In this document: in pieces, positions 2,395-9,988 of the stretch
Layout of the letters: the number at the start of each line of letters is the position of its first letter
Position numbering within the stretch: the stretch's first letter is position 1
Assembly (NCBI GenBank): GCA_035063765.1
Contig: JAPSFT010000032.1
Coordinates: 1 to 37,470, forward strand
DNA length: 37,470 bases
Source: Deltaproteobacteria bacterium
GTDB lineage: Bacteria > Myxococcota_A > UBA9160 > PR03
Reading direction: 5' to 3'
Made by a program: the position numbers and the translations under genes
The notes under the pieces: model-generated
The model's database searches: none
Told to the model about the DNA's origin: nothing
What the model saw: only the letters and a program-made list of their open reading frames with translations

Positions 2395-3354
2395 CTAGTG
2401 CTCGTGGCTCGCGCCGGCCTTGCCGGCCTCGGCCTTCACGACGAAGCTCCCCTGGGCCGCGTAGCGCTGGCCGGCGGCCAGGCCCGCGCGCACCTCGACG
2501 CGCTCCGCGTCGCGGCGCCCGAGCTCGACGGGCTGCGCCACGAAGCCGCCCTCGCGCTCGAGGTAGACGACGTCGCGGTCGCCCAGCCGCTGCACGGCCC
2601 CGGCGGCGACCGCCACCGCCACGTCCTCGGACTCACGCTCGACCTCGGCGGTGACGAACAGGCCCGGGCGCCAGGTGCGATCCGGGTTCGGCAGCACGGC
2701 CCGCGCCAGGAGCGTCTGGGTGTTCGGTGCCCCGACCGGCGAGAGATACGAGATCGTGCTCTCCGCGGGCGGCGTGCCGTCGCCGGCGTCGACGCGTACG
2801 CGCTGGCCGAGCCGCAGCCGGCCGAAGTCGGGGCGGTAGACGTCGAGATCCACCCACACGGTCGAGAGGTCGGCGATCACGAAGATCTCCTGCTCGCTCG
2901 ACACGAACTCGCCGGGTGCGATCTCCTTGGCGATCACGGTGCCCGCGAGGCGCGCGCGCACCTCGTAGGGGTGCAGGCTCTCGTTGCTCTCGATGACCGC
3001 GAGCAGGTCACCGGGCGCGACCCGATCGCCGACGCGCTTGTGGACCGCGAGCACCGCGCCCGGGAAGCGCGGCCGGAGATGGGCGAGCGCGTCCTCGTTG
3101 GCGGTGATGCGGCCCCCCAGCACCACGTGCTCGTGGATCGTCGCGGGGCCGGCGGTGGCAACCTCGATGCCGGCGGCTGCGCGCTGCGCAGCGTCCATCG
3201 GGATCGGCTCCGGCGCGGACGCGTGGTCGTGGCCGTCGCGCTCGGGCCCATGGGCTTCGCTCCCGTCGTCTGCGTGCGGCTCGCCGGCTCCGCAGCCGGC
3301 CAGGGCCCCGGCGATCGCGAGCGCCGCCGCTCGCAGGAGCGTCCCGCGGATCAT
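2395..3354 (-). CDS. czcB: CzcB/CusB-like periplasmic adaptor lipoprotein of the metal RND pump
   Basis: Membrane-fusion adaptor of 319 residues linking the RND pump to the outer-membrane factor. The N-terminus MIRGTLLRAAALAIAGALAGC ends in a lipobox (LAGC, Cys21), so it is probably lipid-anchored. Residues 24-50 are rich in His and Asp (HADDG, HGPERDGHDH) and the tail ends HEH, both plausible metal-binding stretches. A barrel-sandwich/lipoyl-like segment follows (residues about 75-170, with AVHKRVGDRVAPGDLLAVIES), then beta-barrel and membrane-proximal parts. The ATG shares an ATGA with the czcC stop (3351-3354), which implies translational coupling. Adaptor identity is clear; the metal range is inferred. 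Confidence 0.92.
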   Translation of the reverse strand: MIRGTLLRAAALAIAGALAGCGAGEPHADDGSEAHGPERDGHDHASAPEPIPMDAAQRAAAGIEVATAGPATIHEHVVLGGRITANEDALAHLRPRFPGAVLAVHKRVGDRVAPGDLLAVIESNESLHPYEVRARLAGTVIAKEIAPGEFVSSEQEIFVIADLSTVWVDLDVYRPDFGRLRLGQRVRVDAGDGTPPAESTISYLSPVGAPNTQTLLARAVLPNPDRTWRPGLFVTAEVERESEDVAVAVAAGAVQRLGDRDVVYLEREGGFVAQPVELGRRDAERVEVRAGLAAGQRYAAQGSFVVKAEAGKAGASHEH

Positions 3355-4703
3355 CGGGCCGCCCTCCCGAGCGGTGCGCCGGTGAGGCGCTCCAGCCGAT
3401 GCGCGGCGCGCTGCGCCTCGAGCAGGGCGTCGACCCGGCGCAGGGAGGTGGCGATCCGCTCGGCCTCGGCCTCCAGCACCTCGTGCTGGGAGTTGCGGCC
3501 GGCCTCGTAGCCGCGCCGGAGCTCGGCGGCGAGGCGATCGAGCGCAGGGAGCACGCTCGCACCGAGCCGCTCCGCCTCCGCGCTCGAGGCCAGGAGCGCG
3601 GCCCGCGCCGCCGCGAGCTCGGCGTCCGCGCGCTGCTCCGCCGCGCGCTGCTCCTGCTCGACCCGGGCGCGCCGGTAGCGCGCCTCCGCGATCGCCCCGT
3701 CGTTGCGATCCCAGAGCGGAAGCGGGAGCGACGCCCCGAAGACGAGCGTCGCGTCGTCGGAGCCGGCCAGGTAGCGCGGCCCTGCCGCGAGCGTCACGTC
3801 GGGCACGCGCGCGCTGCGGGCGCCCGCGAGCTCGGCGTCGCGGCCCTCGCGCGCCACGGCCCAGCGCGCCCGCTCGGGGCTCCCGGCCGCACGGCTGCGC
3901 AGCTCGTCGAGGGGCGGCGGCTCGGGCGGCACCCCGAGGTCGCCGGCGGCGCGCTCGAAGCGGGCCTCCGTGCCGCCCCACTGCTGGGCGAGCGCCGCAC
4001 GTGCGACCGCCACCGCGCGCTCGGCGCGTTCGCTCGCGAGGGCGGCTTCGGCAACGGTGACGTCGGCGCGGATCCGCTCGGCCGGCGAGGCCAGCCCGGC
4101 CGCGACCCGCTGCCGGGCAGCGCGACCGAGCGCCGCGGCGAGGCGGGCGGCAGCGGCGGCAAGCCGGCTCCTCTCCTGCGCGGCGAGCAGCTCGGCGAAC
4201 GCGTCCGCGGTCGCGGTGAAGACGTCGAGACGGCGCGCCTCGTGGTCCCAGCCGGCCAGCCCGCGCTCGGCCTCGGCGAGACGCACGCGCGCCGCGCGCT
4301 TGCCGCCGAGCTCGACGAGCTGCCCGATCTCGAGCGTCGTCTGCGACTCGCTCGCACCCCCGAGCTCCCCGCTGCCGAGGACGTCCTCGACCTCGAGCGA
4401 GAGGGTCGGGTTCGGGCGCCGGCCGGCCTGGAGCAGCGCCGCCTCGCGCGCGCGCAGCTCGTAGGCCTCGGAGGCGAGCTCGGGGTTCCCGAGCAGCGCG
4501 GCCGCGAGCGCGTCCTCGAGGCCCAGGACGCCCGTGGGATCCACGGCCGCCGGCGCGGCGCTCGCCGCCGGATCCGCGGCAGCGGAGAAGGTGGGGAGCT
4601 CGCGGCCCAGGGGGAGCGGGCCGGGCGGCCCGGGCTGGGCCTGCGCAGGGGCGGCGAGCGCGGCGCACAGCGCCGGCGCCCAGGCCGCGACGGATCGTCG
4701 CAT
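3351..4703 (-). CDS. czcC: CzcC/TolC-type outer-membrane factor of the metal efflux pump
   Basis: Outer-membrane channel of 450 residues in the TolC/OEP family. It has a signal peptide (MRRSVAAWAPALCAALAAPAQAQ, likely cut after AQA) and two OEP repeats of long Ala/Glu/Arg-rich helices (for example LEDALAAALLGNPELASEAY near residue 60). The motif RRPNPTLSLEVED is typical of CzcC relatives. The ATG at 4703 is preferred because a Sec signal follows at once and GAGGA lies upstream; translation open further upstream to 4790 runs through the inverted repeat and has no family likeness. It overlaps czcB by 4 bases. It follows the small His-rich protein across a 96-base spacer full of inverted repeats. 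Confidence 0.93.
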   Translation of the reverse strand: MRRSVAAWAPALCAALAAPAQAQPGPPGPLPLGRELPTFSAAADPAASAAPAAVDPTGVLGLEDALAAALLGNPELASEAYELRAREAALLQAGRRPNPTLSLEVEDVLGSGELGGASESQTTLEIGQLVELGGKRAARVRLAEAERGLAGWDHEARRLDVFTATADAFAELLAAQERSRLAAAAARLAAALGRAARQRVAAGLASPAERIRADVTVAEAALASERAERAVAVARAALAQQWGGTEARFERAAGDLGVPPEPPPLDELRSRAAGSPERARWAVAREGRDAELAGARSARVPDVTLAAGPRYLAGSDDATLVFGASLPLPLWDRNDGAIAEARYRRARVEQEQRAAEQRADAELAAARAALLASSAEAERLGASVLPALDRLAAELRRGYEAGRNSQHEVLEAEAERIATSLRRVDALLEAQRAAHRLERLTGAPLGRAAR

Positions 4704-4723
4704 CGTGTCGTCCTCGCACGGGA

Positions 4724-4800
4724 GACGGAGGCACGCGCGCGGCCTCGAGGCCGCGCACGCGGAACGCGCGCGCCCTCGCGCGCGCAGCACGGCCTCCGTC
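4724..4800 (-). repeat. Compound inverted repeat between the His-rich gene and czcC (three-way-junction-like)
   Basis: Perfect 9-base arms GACGGAGGC (4724-4732) and GCCTCCGTC (4792-4800) enclose two further hairpins. One is a 20-base self-complementary palindrome at 4737-4756. The other has 7-base GCGCGCG/CGCGCGC arms at 4766-4783. The outer arm touches the stop codon of the upstream gene (4802-4800), and the structure ends about 20 bases before the czcC start. There is no T-tract, so it may be an mRNA processing, stability or attenuation structure rather than an intrinsic terminator. Confidence 0.65.
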
Positions 4801-5252
4801 TAGACGCGCAGGACGACGGTGCGCAGGAGCGCCGCGCTGCGTCCCGCGGCACGCAGCCCCCCGTTCCACGGGAGCTCCGCGATCGACGCGGGCGCGAGCG
4901 CGACGCCGGCCGCCAGCCAGGCGGGCGGTGCCGGGAGGCGACGGGCGCCCTCCCGCAGCGGATCGGACGCCACGAGGTGGACGACGTGGTCCCCTTCGTG
5001 GGCTTCGAGGCCCGGGCCGCCGTGATCGTCGTGGCGGTCGTGATGGAGGACCACGTCCAGGTGGCCGGTGTCGGGCTCGAGCGAGAGCCGGTGCCCGCCG
5101 TCCAGGCTCGCTGCGAGCGATCCGACGAGGACGCCCGGGTGCGCCGCGAAGAGGTACGCGAGCGTCGAGGCCAGCAGGGCGGCGCGGACCAGGGGTCGGC
5201 GGGGCGGAACGGACTTCACGGCGGGCCCAGGCTCCCGGAGGCGGATCCGCAT
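4800..5252 (-). CDS. Small His-rich exported/membrane protein leading the czc operon
   Basis: A 150-residue protein I cannot assign to a named family. A basic N-terminus is followed by one hydrophobic segment (about residues 22-46, LVRAALLASTLAYLFA...), which would act as a signal or anchor. The middle (about residues 62-95) is packed with His and Asp, including HHDRHDDHGG and HEGDHVVHL, and would suit metal binding in the periplasm. The C-terminus ends RTVVLRV. It is upstream of and co-oriented with czcCBA, so it may sense, buffer or deliver metal to the pump (inference). The start is uncertain: ATG at 5252, or GTG at 5219, which would still keep the hydrophobic segment. Confidence 0.72.
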   Translation of the reverse strand: MRIRLREPGPAVKSVPPRRPLVRAALLASTLAYLFAAHPGVLVGSLAASLDGGHRLSLEPDTGHLDVVLHHDRHDDHGGPGLEAHEGDHVVHLVASDPLREGARRLPAPPAWLAAGVALAPASIAELPWNGGLRAAGRSAALLRTVVLRV

Positions 5253-5320
5253 GTCAACCGCGCCGGCTCCGCCCGCCCAGCGCGGTAGATTGTGCCTCCC
5301 ACCCGGCTCGCGAGGCCCCG

Positions 5321-5983
5321 ATGCCCGACGCCCCCAAGTCCTTCCACCTCTCGCCCGCCGTCCACGACTACCTGGTCCGGCACGGCACCCCGCCCGACGC
5401 CGTGCAGCAGGAGCTGATCGCGGCGACGAAGCAGCTCGGCGGGATCTCGCTCATGCAGATCGCGCCCGAGCAGGGCGCCTTCCTGACCCTGCTCGCGCGC
5501 GCGATCGGCGCGCGCCAAGCGCTCGAGGTCGGCACCTTCACCGGCTACTCGGCCCTGTGCATCGCGCGCGGGCTCGCGCCCGGGGGCCGGCTGCTCTGCT
5601 GCGACGTCTCCGAGGAGTGGACCGCGATCGCGCGCCGCTTCTGGGCGAAGGCGGGCGTCGCCGAGCGCATCGAGCTGCGCCTCGGCCCGGCGGCCGAGAC
5701 GCTCGCCGCGCTGCCGCGCGAGCCCCGCTTCGACCTCGCCTTCCTCGACGCCGACAAGGGCGGCTACCCGCTCTACTACGAGGAGATCCTGGAGCGGCTG
5801 CGCCCGGGCGGGCTCGTGCTCGTCGACAACGTGCTCTGGTTCGGGCGCGTCGCCGACCCGGCGGCCGACGACGAGGCGACCGGGCAGATCCGGGCCTTCA
5901 ACGCGAAGCTCGCCGCCGATCCGCGCGTCGAGGTCGTCCTGCTCCCGATCGGCGACGGGCTCACGATCGCGCGCAAGCGCTGA
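5321..5983 (+). CDS. SAM-dependent O-methyltransferase, caffeoyl-CoA OMT-like (Methyltransf_3)
   Basis: Class I methyltransferase of 220 residues, the usual size for the cation-dependent O-methyltransferase family, which methylates catechol-type hydroxyls. The SAM-binding motif I is LEVGTFTGYSALCIA (residues 69-82). The family's metal-ligand pattern is visible as D143 in FLDADK and D169-N170 in VLVDNVLW. The C-terminal IGDGLTIARKR is also typical. ATG at 5321 begins MPDAPKSFHLSP, which matches family N-termini. A weak -10-like TAGATT lies at 5286-5291. The 3' end overlaps the convergent GST-like gene by 23 bases. The substrate cannot be told from sequence. Confidence 0.92.
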   Translation: MPDAPKSFHLSPAVHDYLVRHGTPPDAVQQELIAATKQLGGISLMQIAPEQGAFLTLLARAIGARQALEVGTFTGYSALCIARGLAPGGRLLCCDVSEEWTAIARRFWAKAGVAERIELRLGPAAETLAALPREPRFDLAFLDADKGGYPLYYEEILERLRPGGLVLVDNVLWFGRVADPAADDEATGQIRAFNAKLAADPRVEVVLLPIGDGLTIARKR

Positions 5984-6641
5984 GCGCCACGGCGTCGGTC
6001 TCCGGGATGCGCTCGGGCTCCGCGCGGGCCGCGGCCGTCCACTCGCAGAGCGCGGGGAGCGCGCGCACCGCGTCGGCGTAGGCCCGCGCCGCCGGCGGGA
6101 GCGCCACGCCGTAGCTGTGGAAGCGCGTCACCACGGGCGCGTACATCGCGTCGGCGATCGTGAAGGAGCCGAAGAGGAAGGGCCCGGCCAGACCGGAGCG
6201 CGCGCGGCAGCCCTCCCAGATCGCGACGACGCGCTCGACCTCGGCGTGCACCTCGGGTGCCAGCGCGAGGTGCGCGCCCTCCGCGCGCAGGTTCATCGGC
6301 AGGGCGCTGCGCAGCGCGGCGAAGCCCGCGTGCATCTCCGCGCTGATCGCCCGCGCGTGCGCGCGCGCGGCCGCCTCCGCCGGCCACAGGCCCGCCTGCG
6401 GCGCTTGCTCGGCGGCGTACTCGCAGATCGCGAGCGAGTCCCAGACCGTGAGCGCACCGTCGTGCAGGACAGGCACCCAGCCGGCGGGCGAGTGGCGGAG
6501 GATCGCCGCCCGGGTCCCCGCGACCGAGAGGGGGATGCGCTGCTCCTCGAAGGCGAGCCCGGCCATGCGCAACGCGAGCCAGGCGCGCAGCGACCACGAC
6601 GAGTAGTTCTTGTTGCCGATCACGAGGATCCGGGACGCCAA
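5961..6641 (-). CDS. Glutathione S-transferase family protein
   Basis: A cytoplasmic GST-fold protein of 226 residues. The thioredoxin-like N-domain begins RILVIGNKNYSSWSLRAWLAL and continues to the cis-Pro loop (GWVPVLHDGALTVWDSLAICEYAAE), where the DS pair would bind the glutathione gamma-glutamyl group. The all-helical C-domain includes FLFGSFTIADAMYAPVVTRF (about residues 152-171), a typical GST hydrophobic core. It starts with TTG at 6641; GGAGGA lies just upstream on the minus strand and the first residues fit the family. It converges on and overlaps the O-methyltransferase by 23 bases. It could act in detoxification or as a dehalogenase/isomerase; the reaction is unknown. Confidence 0.9.
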   Translation of the reverse strand: MASRILVIGNKNYSSWSLRAWLALRMAGLAFEEQRIPLSVAGTRAAILRHSPAGWVPVLHDGALTVWDSLAICEYAAEQAPQAGLWPAEAAARAHARAISAEMHAGFAALRSALPMNLRAEGAHLALAPEVHAEVERVVAIWEGCRARSGLAGPFLFGSFTIADAMYAPVVTRFHSYGVALPPAARAYADAVRALPALCEWTAAARAEPERIPETDAVALSACARS

Positions 6642-6724
6642 CGCTCCTCCCTGCCGCGCGCCGGGCGCCGGTCGCCGCCCCGCGGCCTGCGGGCGGGCCC
6701 TTGTCGCAAGGCACGCAGTAGGTT

Positions 6725-6738
6725 AGTAAACGCTCACT
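6725..6738. promoter_or_regulatory. Operator-like palindrome directly before tetR
   Basis: AGTAAACGCTCACT is an imperfect palindrome (half-sites AGTrArCG) ending two bases before the tetR ATG. Its form resembles known TetR/AcrR operators with AGTGAGCG / CGCTCACT half-sites, so autorepression of tetR-emrAB is likely. A weak TTGTCG (6701-6706) followed 17 bases later by TAGTAA (6724-6729) could be the promoter; if so the transcript would be nearly leaderless and the operator would cover the -10 box. Confidence 0.5.
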
Positions 6739-6740
6739 CG

Positions 6741-7430
6741 ATGTCCTCCTCGACCCCGCGGCCCCGTCCCCGCCGCCGGCCGGCCGCCGCCACGCGCCCG
6801 GCCCGCCGGGAGCGCCCGCGCGGGGCCGAGCGCCGGCGCCAGATCCTCGACGAGGCGGCGCGCCTGTTCGCGAGCGCCGGCTTCCGCGGCGTCACGACGC
6901 GCGACGTGGCGGCGCGGGTCGGCATCACCGAGGCCGCGCTCTACCGCTACTTCCCGGGCAAGGAGGCGATCTACGCGGCGATCCTCGAGGAGCGCATGGC
7001 CAGCGCCGACCCGCTGGCGGCGCTCGAGGAGGCGGCCGCCGCGGGCCGCGACCGCGAGGTGTTCACGGGCCTCGCGCTGCTCCTCCTGCGGCGGGTCGAG
7101 CAGGACCCCTCGCTGCTGCGCCTGCTGCTCTTCTCCGCGCTCGAGGGCCACGACATGGCGGGCCCCTTCCAGGAGAAGCGCATCCGGCGCCTGCGCAGCT
7201 TCCTCGAGGAGTACGCCAAGCGCCGCCAGCGCGAGGGCGCCTTCCGCGGCATCGACCCGGCCCTGACGGCGCGCGCCTTCATCGGGATGGTCGTGGACCA
7301 CCTGATCGTGCGGCACGTCTTCGGGCAGCGCGACGCCTACCCGCAGCCGCCCGAGGCGGTCGCCGAGGCCTACGTCGCGATCTTCCTCGACGGCGTGCGC
7401 GCCCGGGCCGGGCGGGCCCGCCGTGGCTGA
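6741..7430 (+). CDS. TetR/AcrR-family transcriptional regulator of the emrAB-like pump
   Basis: A 229-residue repressor. The first 30 residues are Arg/Pro-rich and low in complexity. The TetR DNA-binding domain follows: RRRQILDEAARLFASAGFRG, then the helix-turn-helix at residues about 51-72 (VTTRDVAARVGITEAALYRYF) and the closing PGKEAIYAAIL. The C-terminal helical domain (about 90-225) would bind a ligand and form the dimer. ATG at 6741 is chosen because the operator-like palindrome lies immediately upstream. The stop overlaps the emrA start by 8 bases, so regulator and pump are probably co-translated. The likely role is ligand-relieved repression of the downstream pump (inference from context). 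Confidence 0.93.
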   Translation: MSSSTPRPRPRRRPAAATRPARRERPRGAERRRQILDEAARLFASAGFRGVTTRDVAARVGITEAALYRYFPGKEAIYAAILEERMASADPLAALEEAAAAGRDREVFTGLALLLLRRVEQDPSLLRLLLFSALEGHDMAGPFQEKRIRRLRSFLEEYAKRRQREGAFRGIDPALTARAFIGMVVDHLIVRHVFGQRDAYPQPPEAVAEAYVAIFLDGVRARAGRARRG

Positions 7431-8427
7431 GGCCGCCGCCGCCGGCCGCGGGCGCTCGCGCGTGGCGGCACGCCCGCTCCTGCTGGGCGCCGTCGCGCTC
7501 GCCGTGCTGGCCGCCGGCACCGTGTGGCTGCTCGGCCTGCGCGGGGTCGAGAGCACCGACGACGCCTTTGTCGAGGGCCATCTCGTCTTCCTCTCGCCGC
7601 GCGTGGGCGGCCACGTCGTCGAGGTCCTGGTCGACGAGCACCAGCACGTCGAGGCCGGCCAGGTGCTGGTGCGGCTCGACCCGGCCGACTTCGAGGCGCG
7701 CGTGGCGCGCGCGCGCGCCGACCTCGACGCCGCGCGCAACCGCATCGCCCAGGCGAGCGCGGCCGCCGGCGCCGCGGGCGCCCGGGCCGCCGCGGCGGAC
7801 GTGCGCCTGCGCCACGCCGAGCGCGAGCTCGGCCGCGTGCGCGGGCTCCTTGCCGCGGGCGCCGCGAGCCGCACGGCGCTCGACGACGCCCAGGCGCAGC
7901 GCGACGCCGCCGAGGCCGAGCTGCGCGCCGCCCGCGAAGGCGAGCTTGCCGAGCGCGCCGCGCTCGGCAACGAGGCGCCGGTGCGCCAGGCCGAGGCTGC
8001 CCTGCGCGAGGCCGGGCTCGCGCTCGAGCATGCCGTGCTGCGGGCGCCCTTCGCGGGCACGATCGGCCGGCGCAGCGTCGAGGTGGGGGCGAACGTGGCA
8101 CCCGGCCAGGCGCTGCTCGCCCTCACCGCCGACGGCGAGACCTGGGTCACCGCCAACTTCAAGGAGACCCAGATCCGCGCGATGCGGCCCGGCGATCCCG
8201 TCGAGATCCACGTCGACGCCTTCCCGGACCGGCCCGTGCGCGGCCACGTCGAGTCGCTGGCGCCGGCGACCGGCGCCCAGTACGCGCTCTTGCCGCCCGA
8301 CAACGCGACCGGGAACTTCACGAAGGTGGTGCAGCGCGTGCCGGTGCGGATCGCGCTCGAGCAGGAGCCGGGCGCCCCGCCGCTCCCCGTCGGCCTCTCG
8401 GTGACCGCCCGTGTCCGCGTCCGCTGA
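7423..8427 (+). CDS. emrA: EmrA/HlyD-family membrane-fusion protein of a drug-efflux system
   Basis: Periplasmic adaptor of 334 residues anchored by one N-terminal transmembrane helix (about 19-39). The motif ESTDDAFVEGHLVFLSPRVGGHVVEVLVDEHQHVEAGQ is split here as STDDAFVEGH (44-53) and SPRVGGHVVEVLVD (58-71), the EmrA hallmark start of the lipoyl half-domain. A long Ala-rich coiled-coil hairpin spans about 90-200. The second lipoyl half is ALEHAVLRAPFAGTIGRRSV, followed by the EmrA-type WVTANFKETQ and NATGNFTKVVQRVPVRI. It starts with GTG inside the end of tetR and its end overlaps emrB by 17 bases. It should pair with the MFS pump next door and an outer-membrane channel encoded elsewhere. 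Confidence 0.94.
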   Translation: MAEAAAAGRGRSRVAARPLLLGAVALAVLAAGTVWLLGLRGVESTDDAFVEGHLVFLSPRVGGHVVEVLVDEHQHVEAGQVLVRLDPADFEARVARARADLDAARNRIAQASAAAGAAGARAAAADVRLRHAERELGRVRGLLAAGAASRTALDDAQAQRDAAEAELRAAREGELAERAALGNEAPVRQAEAALREAGLALEHAVLRAPFAGTIGRRSVEVGANVAPGQALLALTADGETWVTANFKETQIRAMRPGDPVEIHVDAFPDRPVRGHVESLAPATGAQYALLPPDNATGNFTKVVQRVPVRIALEQEPGAPPLPVGLSVTARVRVR

Positions 8428-9988
8428 GGGCATCCCGCGCGCCGCGCCCGCAGCGGAGGGCCTGTCGCTCGCCCGCTGGCTGATGATCCTCGGCGTGATG
8501 CTGGCGGTGATGCTCGAGATCATCGACGCCAGCATCGTCAACGTCGCGATGCCCGTGATGATGGGCAACCTCGGCGCCACCGTGGACGAGATCTCGTGGG
8601 TGGCGACCAGCTACATCATCGCGAACGTCGTCGTGATCCCGATGACGAGCTGGCTCGCCGGCCGCTTCGGGCGGCGCCGCTACTTCGTCGGCTCGATCCT
8701 GCTCTTCACCGGAGCCTCGTTCCTGTGCGGAACGGCGCAGACCCTGCCGGTGCTGGTCGCCTTCCGCGTGCTGCAGGGGCTCGGCGGGGGCGCGCTGCTC
8801 GCGACCTCGCAGTCGATCCTGGTCGAGACCTTCCCGCCGGAGCAGCAGGGCACCGGGCAGGCGATCTTCGGGATGGGCGCGATGCTCGGCCCGAGCCTCG
8901 GCCCGACGCTCGGCGGCTGGATCACGGACCAGTGGTCGTGGCCCTGGATCTTCTTCGTGAACGTGCCGCTCGGGATCGCCGCGGCGGCGCTGTGCTTCCG
9001 CTACCTGCCGGAGCCGCGCGCCGGCGCCCGGCGCGACACCCGCGTCGACTGGCCCGGGATCGCGCTGCTGGTGGTCGGCGTCGCCGCGCTCCAGACGTTC
9101 CTCGAGCGCGGCAACCGGCTCGACTGGTTCGAGAGCGGCTTCATCGTGGCGCTCGCGCTCGTGGCGGCGGTGGCGCTCGCGTGCTTCGTCTGGCACGAGC
9201 TGCGCACCGAGCACCCGGTCGTGGACCTGCGCGTGTTCCGCCACCGCGCGCTCGCGGTCGGCTGCGCCTGGGGGGCGGCGATCGGGGTCGGCCTCTACGG
9301 CAGCGTGTTCCTGCTGCCCCTCTTCACCCAGAACCTGCTCCACTTCACGAGCTGGCAGTCGGGGCTCGCGATCCTGCCGTCGTCGCTCGCGACGGCGCTC
9401 ATGATGCCGATCGCGGGCCGCCTCGTGTGGCGCCTCGGCCCGGCGCCGCTGCTCGGCGCCGGCCTCCTCGCCTTCGTCCCGGCGGTCTACGCGATGAGCC
9501 ACTGGACCCTGCAGAGCGGCTACTGGGACCTGTTCTGGCCCCAGGTCGGGCGCGGCGTCGCGATGGGGCTCATGTTCGTGCCGCTCTCCACCGCGACCCT
9601 GCGCGCGCTGCCCCCGGCGGAGGTGCTGCAGGGCGCCGGGCTCTACAACCTGTTCCGCCAGCTCGGCGGCAGCATGGGCATCGCGACGCTCGCGACGCTC
9701 GTCGACCACCGCGGCGCGCTGCACCGCGCGCTCCTGGCCGAGCACGTGACGCCGCTCTCGGAGGCCGCCCGCGTGCGCCTCGACCTGTTCACGGCCGGGC
9801 TCGTGGCGCGCGGCCTCGACCCCGAGACCGCCGCCCGGGCCGCCTACGAGGCGCTCGAGCGGATCGTCGCGTCGCAGGCCGCGCTGCTCGCCTTCCGCGA
9901 CTGCTACCTGCTGATCGTCCTGCTGTTCCTGGCGCTCGTGCCGCTCGTGCCGCTGCTGCAGCGCCCGCCGGCCGCGCCGGCGCGCTGA
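8411..9988 (+). CDS. emrB: EmrB/QacA-type MFS multidrug transporter (DHA2, 14 TM)
   Basis: Inner-membrane proton-driven drug exporter of 525 residues, the usual length for the 14-helix DHA2 family. Helix 1 holds MLEIIDASIVNVAMPVM, the EmrB signature (D-x-x-I/V-V-N-VA-P). Motif A appears as WLAGRFGRRRYF between helices 2 and 3. Motif C appears as GAMLGPSLGPTLGGWI in helix 5, typical of MFS antiporters. The Gln/Trp-rich loop HFTSWQSGLAILPSS is also characteristic. The GTG start lies within emrA (17-base overlap), which implies coupled translation. Its stop is one base from the stop of the convergent zinc-ribbon gene. Substrates are unknown. Confidence 0.95.
   Translation: MSASAEGIPRAAPAAEGLSLARWLMILGVMLAVMLEIIDASIVNVAMPVMMGNLGATVDEISWVATSYIIANVVVIPMTSWLAGRFGRRRYFVGSILLFTGASFLCGTAQTLPVLVAFRVLQGLGGGALLATSQSILVETFPPEQQGTGQAIFGMGAMLGPSLGPTLGGWITDQWSWPWIFFVNVPLGIAAAALCFRYLPEPRAGARRDTRVDWPGIALLVVGVAALQTFLERGNRLDWFESGFIVALALVAAVALACFVWHELRTEHPVVDLRVFRHRALAVGCAWGAAIGVGLYGSVFLLPLFTQNLLHFTSWQSGLAILPSSLATALMMPIAGRLVWRLGPAPLLGAGLLAFVPAVYAMSHWTLQSGYWDLFWPQVGRGVAMGLMFVPLSTATLRALPPAEVLQGAGLYNLFRQLGGSMGIATLATLVDHRGALHRALLAEHVTPLSEAARVRLDLFTAGLVARGLDPETAARAAYEALERIVASQAALLAFRDCYLLIVLLFLALVPLVPLLQRPPAAPAR

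Follow-up and report, generated by a model that had tools for sequence, protein, structure and literature searches.

We propose that the mRNA of a czc-type operon in a Deltaproteobacteria bacterium carries a translational switch, in which the end of a leader gene gates czcC and metal most likely acts through a pause of the leader; we put the probability of this reading at roughly 60%. In the outermost helix of the predicted structure, the czcC Shine-Dalgarno (SD) sequence would be paired with the final codons of the upstream His-rich leader, and the inner helices would draw the two distant arms of this helix together. czcC would be poorly translated unless a ribosome sits at the leader end, and a ribosome reaching, pausing, or terminating at the leader C terminus would cover the anti-SD arm and free the SD. 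The leader protein would be small and probably exported, carrying a His cluster 59 to 87 residues before its end and an apparently conserved last motif (LLRTVVLRV). Metal on the emerging leader would most likely lengthen or change the pause, coupling CzcCBA synthesis to periplasmic divalent metal.

The czc locus and its leader gene

The minus strand of the window (i.e., the whole 37,470-nt stretch that was analyzed) encodes, in order, the His-rich leader (positions 4800 to 5252), czcC (3351 to 4703), czcB (2395 to 3363), and czcA (1 to 2323). The product of czcC (ATG at 4703-4701), the gene with the masked SD, matched the outer membrane efflux protein family of Pfam (PF02321). czcB (start inferred) encodes a periplasmic adaptor recognized by Pfam (PF16576) and NCBIfam; its best NCBIfam match, IhpB, scored under its cut-off, and TIGR01730 (RND_mfp) scored over its cut-off. 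czcA (start inferred), truncated at the contig end, was assigned from its sequence to the RND pumps, and its transmembrane segment (ALDFGLIVDGAVIIVENC) carries a DFG...DGAV signature that we take to be typical of divalent-metal pumps. Upstream of the leader (5290-9988), a methyltransferase gene, a glutathione S-transferase-like gene, and a TetR/HlyD/DHA2-type exporter set were recognized by eye.

An in-frame GTG at 4790, which precedes the czcC ATG by 87 bases, has GGAGG two bases before it and, if used as the czcC start, would place the hairpins described below within an extended czcC. The short spacing of this GGAGG and a signal-peptide-like stretch that starts at the czcC ATG argue against such a start.

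The leader open reading frame (ORF) encodes 150 amino acids from ATG 5252 (or 139 from GTG 5219) and closes with TAG. Its N terminus is signal-peptide-like (by eye), and its last residues, LLRTVVLRV (codons at 4803-4829), resemble those encoded by differing codons at other czcC loci. The protein contains 10 His and no Cys, and 8 of the 10 His sit 59 to 87 residues from the end. It matched no Pfam family at an E value of 0.001 and no NCBIfam family. Seven other leaders matched no Pfam family at 0.1, and an NCBIfam scan of five leaders gave one with two weak matches far under the cut-off. Used as a protein query against 60 genomes, the window leader matched solely its own genome and one genome of the same genus.

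Predicted fold between the leader and czcC

The earlier note had described a 9-bp outer stem enclosing two inverted repeats, all placed between the leader stop codon and the czcC ribosome site, and these elements are present where it put them. The stem is exact, with 4800-4792 (GACGGAGGC) complementary to 4732-4724 (GCCTCCGTC); one extra pair (4801/4723) extends its arms to 4792-4801 and 4723-4732. The leader stop codon occupies 4802-4800, so the stem starts inside the TAG, and it ends 8 nt ahead of the czcC SD, GAGGA (4715-4711). The enclosed repeats are a 20-base perfect palindrome, GCGCGGCCTCGAGGCCGCGC (4737-4756), made of two 10-bp arms with no loop, and a GC hairpin with GCGCGCG/CGCGCGC arms (4766-4785).

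Folding of the minus strand bore out the impression of a strong structure: the 121 nt from 4820 to 4700 reached -89.5 kcal/mol, compared with -65.35 ± 3.96 kcal/mol in 200 dinucleotide shuffles (z = -6.1), none of which was as good. The three-way junction envisaged at the outset is foldable (-90.4 kcal/mol when enforced on a slightly longer stretch), but a single long hairpin folds best (-93.5 kcal/mol); the inner GC hairpin is an alternative to it. The junction is 3.1 kcal/mol worse, and therefore, according to the folding model, both folds can exist. The junction description also missed a 13-bp outermost helix of the best fold, formed by 4817-4805 and 4720-4707 with a bulge at 4715. In this helix, leader-end codons (GTC GTC CTG CGC G) are paired with the czcC SD region; the 5' (anti-SD) arm lies within the last leader codons, and the 3' arm contains GAGGA (4711-4715).

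The earlier note had also suggested a metal-sensitive attenuator and had pointed out the lack of a T-tract. Our search of 4600-5450 likewise found no terminator-like site or T-tract. A Rho-independent attenuator was rejected since a GC hairpin followed by a T-run is absent from this region, and transcriptional attenuation in general is unsupported given the missing T-tract and the recurrence of SD pairing in relatives. Translational control is the best reading of the attenuator idea because the czcC SD is masked by the predicted helix, whose other arm falls at the position that a ribosome would occupy on completing the leader.

An Rfam search of 4500-5300 returned just three matches, none of which reached the gathering score, and eight czcC loci returned none. 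A search of the genome itself with the 121 bases gave the locus and 12 short weaker matches, one of which was the palindrome read backwards, and a repeat element such as REP was rejected on this result. The one match inspected among the other 11 lies inside the window, in a stretch that is open in all three minus-strand frames.

Predicted SD pairing at related czcC loci

Of 97 related genomes, 48 contained matches to a CzcC query. A single-protein query of named genomes gave no match; with an alignment of 14 CzcC sequences, the named genomes yielded 505 relatives, and we retained the best 80 of these. We also searched 377 genomes of the phylum for closer relatives (E value, 1e-120) and obtained six new loci, three of which had leaders with the end motif (L153, L155, and L156; L153 is the place of L016). 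No further His-type leader end like that of the window occurred among these six.

Using patterns picked after the sequences had been seen and heuristic czcC starts, we classed 109 of 110 loci (all except L026) according to how the ORF preceding czcC ends. An LR[ST]xVLL[IV]-like end was found in 46 loci (class M) and the motif together with a nearby Pro-Pro in 2 (class MP), 39 loci had a Pro-Pro near the end (class P), 18 had other ends (class O), and 4 had no ORF. The 39 class P loci, which are of the CutF/CruR type, are a pattern-based count that includes some doubtful ORFs (e.g., L019, L020, L084, L034, L037, and L108). Leaders of L029, L031, L073, L075, L076, L121, L122, L128, and other members of class P end in RAPP, RSPP, or LRPPR. 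From their sequences, these ends appear arrest-like, and one gene position would carry two alternative ends.

Record titles of the motif class name Planctomycetota, Verrucomicrobia-type bins, Nitrospirota, Poribacteria, Gamma- and Betaproteobacteria, Desulfobacterales, Lentisphaerales, Hydrogenedentota, and one Acidimicrobiia bin; most of these records are metagenome bins, and single phylum labels may be wrong. In L152, on a Manganitrophus plasmid, a gene annotated as a PII-type nitrogen regulator (5483-5824) lies between the adaptor and CzcA-type pump genes.

Folding covered classes M, MP, and P, leaving aside class O, the loci with no ORF, and L095, L110, and L027, whose gaps exceed 220. Among the folded loci, a median of 107 nt (motif class) or 118.5 nt (Pro-Pro class) separated the leader from czcC. 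We defined SD pairing as the probability of base pairing between the SD region and the leader end up to stop+40, and compared it with shuffles that keep the SD region. SD pairing in the window was 0.92, compared with 0.36 in shuffles, and none of 20 shuffles was as high. The 46 loci of the motif class (44 M and 2 MP) gave 0.52 versus 0.26 (40 over the shuffle mean; p = 9e-8) and the 38 loci of the Pro-Pro class 0.60 versus 0.33 (34 over the shuffle mean; p = 9e-7). Taken singly, 17 of the 46 M/MP loci reached p ≤ 0.05 with 20 shuffles, and 7 had SD pairing of <0.2 (L023, L093, L112, L123, L126, L132, and L149).

For the arm tests, 8 of the 84 loci were removed as near-duplicates, leaving 42 in the motif class and 34 in the Pro-Pro class. 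Own arms of the motif class (-15.7 kcal/mol) were better than shuffled arms (-13.0; own better in 32 of 42, p = 2e-5) and than GC-matched arms from other species (-12.3; 33 of 42, p = 3e-6); for the window itself, only five GC-matched loci entered the swap comparison. The corresponding values for the Pro-Pro class were -14.2 versus -12.4 with shuffled arms (20 of 34, p = 0.009) and, in a weak swap test, -14.2 versus -12.9 (21 of 34, p = 0.06). Among single loci, the same-genus relative L012 was not significant (p = 0.16), and L013 (0.054) and L028 (0.064) were borderline. L013 contains two successive copies of the czcC-SD-pairing sequence (1396-1425), one in the last leader codons and the other right after the stop, which could compete.

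We then covered everything through stop+10, as would a ribosome at the leader stop codon with an assumed footprint. This masking raised SD freedom from 0.10 to 0.51 in the window, from 0.28 to 0.44 in the motif class (shuffles, +0.015; 32 of 42, p = 1e-5), and from 0.25 to 0.41 in the Pro-Pro class (shuffles, +0.027; 26 of 34, p = 3e-4). Ordinary gene pairs with similar gaps (n = 12) gave SD pairing of 0.31 versus 0.25 in shuffles (p = 0.28), and ordinary pairs of this genome (n = 11) gave 0.45 versus 0.34 (p = 0.09); the change of SD freedom upon masking was 0.10 versus 0.03 (p = 0.19) and 0.04 versus 0.02 (p = 0.48), respectively. These controls are few and show some excess themselves, and the motif class exceeded them only at p = 0.017 (n = 12 set) and 0.039 (n = 11 set). 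Computation with folding models supports the predicted helix, its recurrence, and the release of the SD upon masking, and coupling of czcC translation to the leader appears likely.

Stem variation in the Methylomonas family

In the family of Methylomonas sp. SURF-1, 15 of 151 genomes had matches, at 17 loci in all. At 16 of these loci the leader was complete and closed with LRSxVLxx or RRSTVLLI; L183, for which the leader end was not obtained, was left out of the counts. In the best fold of all 16 loci (15 distinct), the 27 nt before the czcC start were paired with the stretch from stop-3 to stop+35 (6 to 17 pairs). When the search was confined to these two stretches, the best duplex began 1 to 5 nt past the stop and finished 1 to 8 nt before the start.

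The letters of the stem differ within the family: CTCCTAGC/GCTACGGAG in one group, CTCTTCATAAA/TTTATGAAGAG in L194, and ATTCCCAAAA/TTTTGGGAAT in L195. The own arms of L194 and L195 reached -15.0 and -12.2, compared with a mean of -7.3 with arms of other types. After exclusion of duplicates and near-duplicates (L187, L190, and L196), own arms beat shuffled 5' arms at p ≤ 0.05 in 10 of 13 loci, the exceptions being L185 (0.076), L191 (0.29), and L193 (0.086). Arms of other types bound about equally in groups B and C and, for the most part, in L192, and the SD arm of L193 bound the arms of L185 and L194 more strongly than its own. These groups and loci add no covariation because foreign arms bind as well or better. 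At a Methylomonas plasmid locus, SD pairing was 0.60 versus 0.34 (p = 0.19), and masking gave no change.

Compensation was judged here by the own-versus-swapped and own-versus-shuffled arm tests. On this basis, the absence of compensatory changes in relatives, which the earlier note had named as a refuting outcome, was not observed: stems are kept with different letters. SD pairing that is kept in relatives with different letters suggests that making the leader, perhaps in metal-bound form, switches the pump on.

Constraint on the leader end

We compared the ends of 51 leaders, to which L072 (really LR-like, although placed in class P by its pattern), L078, and L116 had been added by hand. Counting back from the end, residue -7 was R in 40 leaders, residue -6 was T or S in 45, residue -4 was V or I in 49, and residue -3 was L in 48; these counts are overstated because most of the leaders had been picked by the end motif. 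The codons of the motif vary across loci, and for this reason the constraint on the leader end looks like one acting on the peptide. In 41 of the 51 leaders, we detected a C.D-type site no more than 115 residues from the end, and in 38 of those 41 the distance was 64 to 76 residues. Such a span is about the length of the path from the peptidyl center through the ribosome tunnel to the translocon. The site is absent from 10 leaders, including that of the window and its three nearest relatives, which have 8 to 10 His each; from these four loci, a Cys-to-His swap matched to the pump may be suggested. Under many phylum labels, the leaders share a proline-free C terminus and a near-constant distance from the Cys site. 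We infer translational control in the cell, pausing at the leader C terminus, and metal sensing; sensing of metal by the nascent leader chain is plausible.

A wider claim, which we regard as possible rather than probable, is that the LR[ST][VIT]VLL[IV] end is a new proline-free pausing motif and that these leaders form a large unnamed metal-sensing family heading czc-type operons in many phyla. The window lineage would then have exchanged Cys for His to match a divalent-metal pump and would have placed its SD-masking helix partly in the motif codons. If this is true, czc-type pumps under many phylum labels are subject to translational control by the product of the preceding gene, on top of the two-component control of czc, and a proline-free class joins the few nascent chains described as metal sensors, which are those for copper. 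A literature search (titles and the start of abstracts, with subscription journals mostly outside its scope) found, among the matches listed, no description of the proline-free leader end or of czcC SD masking.

Alternative explanations

Plain translational coupling without sensing would account for the same anatomy and the same masking result, and we consider it unlikely but deserving of serious weight. In this case, the helix would hold czcC off until the leader is translated, thereby balancing the two amounts, and the leader would be an ordinary periplasmic metal-binding protein whose C terminus has an unrelated role. A review describes coupling by RNA unfolding across a spacing of +52 nt (PMC12548453), and CzcI of Cupriavidus metallidurans, encoded at the equivalent gene position, is described as a pump quencher (PMC10127602). 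However, the last motif and the 64- to 76-residue distance from Cys to the end are tighter than a plain periplasmic protein needs, and other czcC loci carry, at the same position, Pro-Pro-ended leaders like CutF and CruR.

The hairpins might instead form an RNase or processing boundary, as the earlier note also considered, protecting or cutting the mRNA such that leader and czcC messages become unequal. The fold is very stable, and in C. metallidurans the mRNA level drops from czcI to czcC, with cleavage within czcI suggested (PMC10127602). This explanation is nevertheless improbable, as the recurring feature is SD pairing across unlike sequences, which a stability element would not need, and the C. 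metallidurans pairs have no significant SD pairing (czcI-czcC, p = 0.20; czcI2-czcC2, p = 0.84). A role in setting different protein levels, the other part of that suggestion, is compatible with our results.

A composition artifact, with a GC-rich genome yielding strong stems everywhere and no function attached, is more doubtful still. Perfect inverted repeats (arms of ≥9, loops of ≤10) number 166 in 437,470 bases of the genome and 21 in the window, so the 20-base palindrome alone is ordinary for this genome, and its 11 ordinary gene pairs also leaned toward SD pairing. However, dinucleotide-keeping shuffles fall far short of the observed fold, own arms beat swapped ones, and the SD-pairing arrangement also occurs at lower GC contents (L081, 36%; L194, 44%). 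A DNA cruciform, raised by the earlier note, or a protein-binding palindrome acting on transcription has a negligible probability despite the perfect 20-base palindrome. By eye, relatives have not retained this palindrome, and their inner hairpins vary in letters and length; such palindromes are common in the genome, and no sigma-70-type promoter matched in 4600-5450.

Comparison with known systems

CzcI of C. metallidurans resembles the window leader in being a small Cys/His protein encoded right before czcC (gaps of 75 nt on pMOL30 and 97 nt for czcI2). Its leaders, in contrast, end in RPQWxRLA (CzcI, L197 724-799; czcI2, L159 2222-2319). SD pairing is significant at neither pair, although the czcI2-czcC2 region folds strongly (z = -4.1), and on the pairing result CzcI was rejected as a direct homologue.

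In the presence of copper, the exported leader CutF of Rhodobacter capsulatus opens a stem by which the cutO SD is shielded; cutF acts only in cis, and mutation of the anti-SD raised CutO activity almost tenfold (PMC9973294). The window system is like it in having a small leader ahead of a metal-homeostasis gene and a stem-loop, here predicted, that shields the next SD; the need for leader translation in cis would be shared as well, as a prediction. Unlike CutF, the window leader has no Pro-Pro within its 15 C-terminal residues (it ends GRSAALLRTVVLRV), carries His in place of CxxxC, and is not matched by DUF2946; the gene that it would control is czcC of a divalent-type pump rather than a multicopper oxidase. 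The window leader is 139 to 150 amino acids long, and by eye its N terminus resembles a signal peptide, as it might in a small Sec protein. The CutF survey accepted leaders with Pro-Pro among the last 15 residues, dropped proteins of >150 amino acids, noted CzcI as having no Pro-Pro, and included two clusters with His motifs only (PMC9973294). Because of the terminal Pro-Pro requirement, the window leader, by its sequence, falls outside the published CutF definition, though the layout is shared.

The CruR (DUF2946) upstream ORFs of Bordetella pertussis carry CXXC and RAPP and, with copper, trigger Rho-dependent termination (PMC9426467). As in CruR, the window leader is probably exported and first in its operon, and the C.D-to-end spacing among the related leaders recalls the fixed spacing from CXXC to RAPP (PMC9426467). 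The window leader differs in having no CXXC, no RAPP, and no match to PF11162. We found in its sequence no arrest motif of the known RAGP/RAPP-like kind (PMC10987492, PMC12992588). SecM-secA, in which a stalled ribosome on an exported leader opens a stem masking the next SD and export is sensed through an arrest motif ending in RAGP, is an older example of the same layout that we propose for the leader and czcC (PMC10987492).
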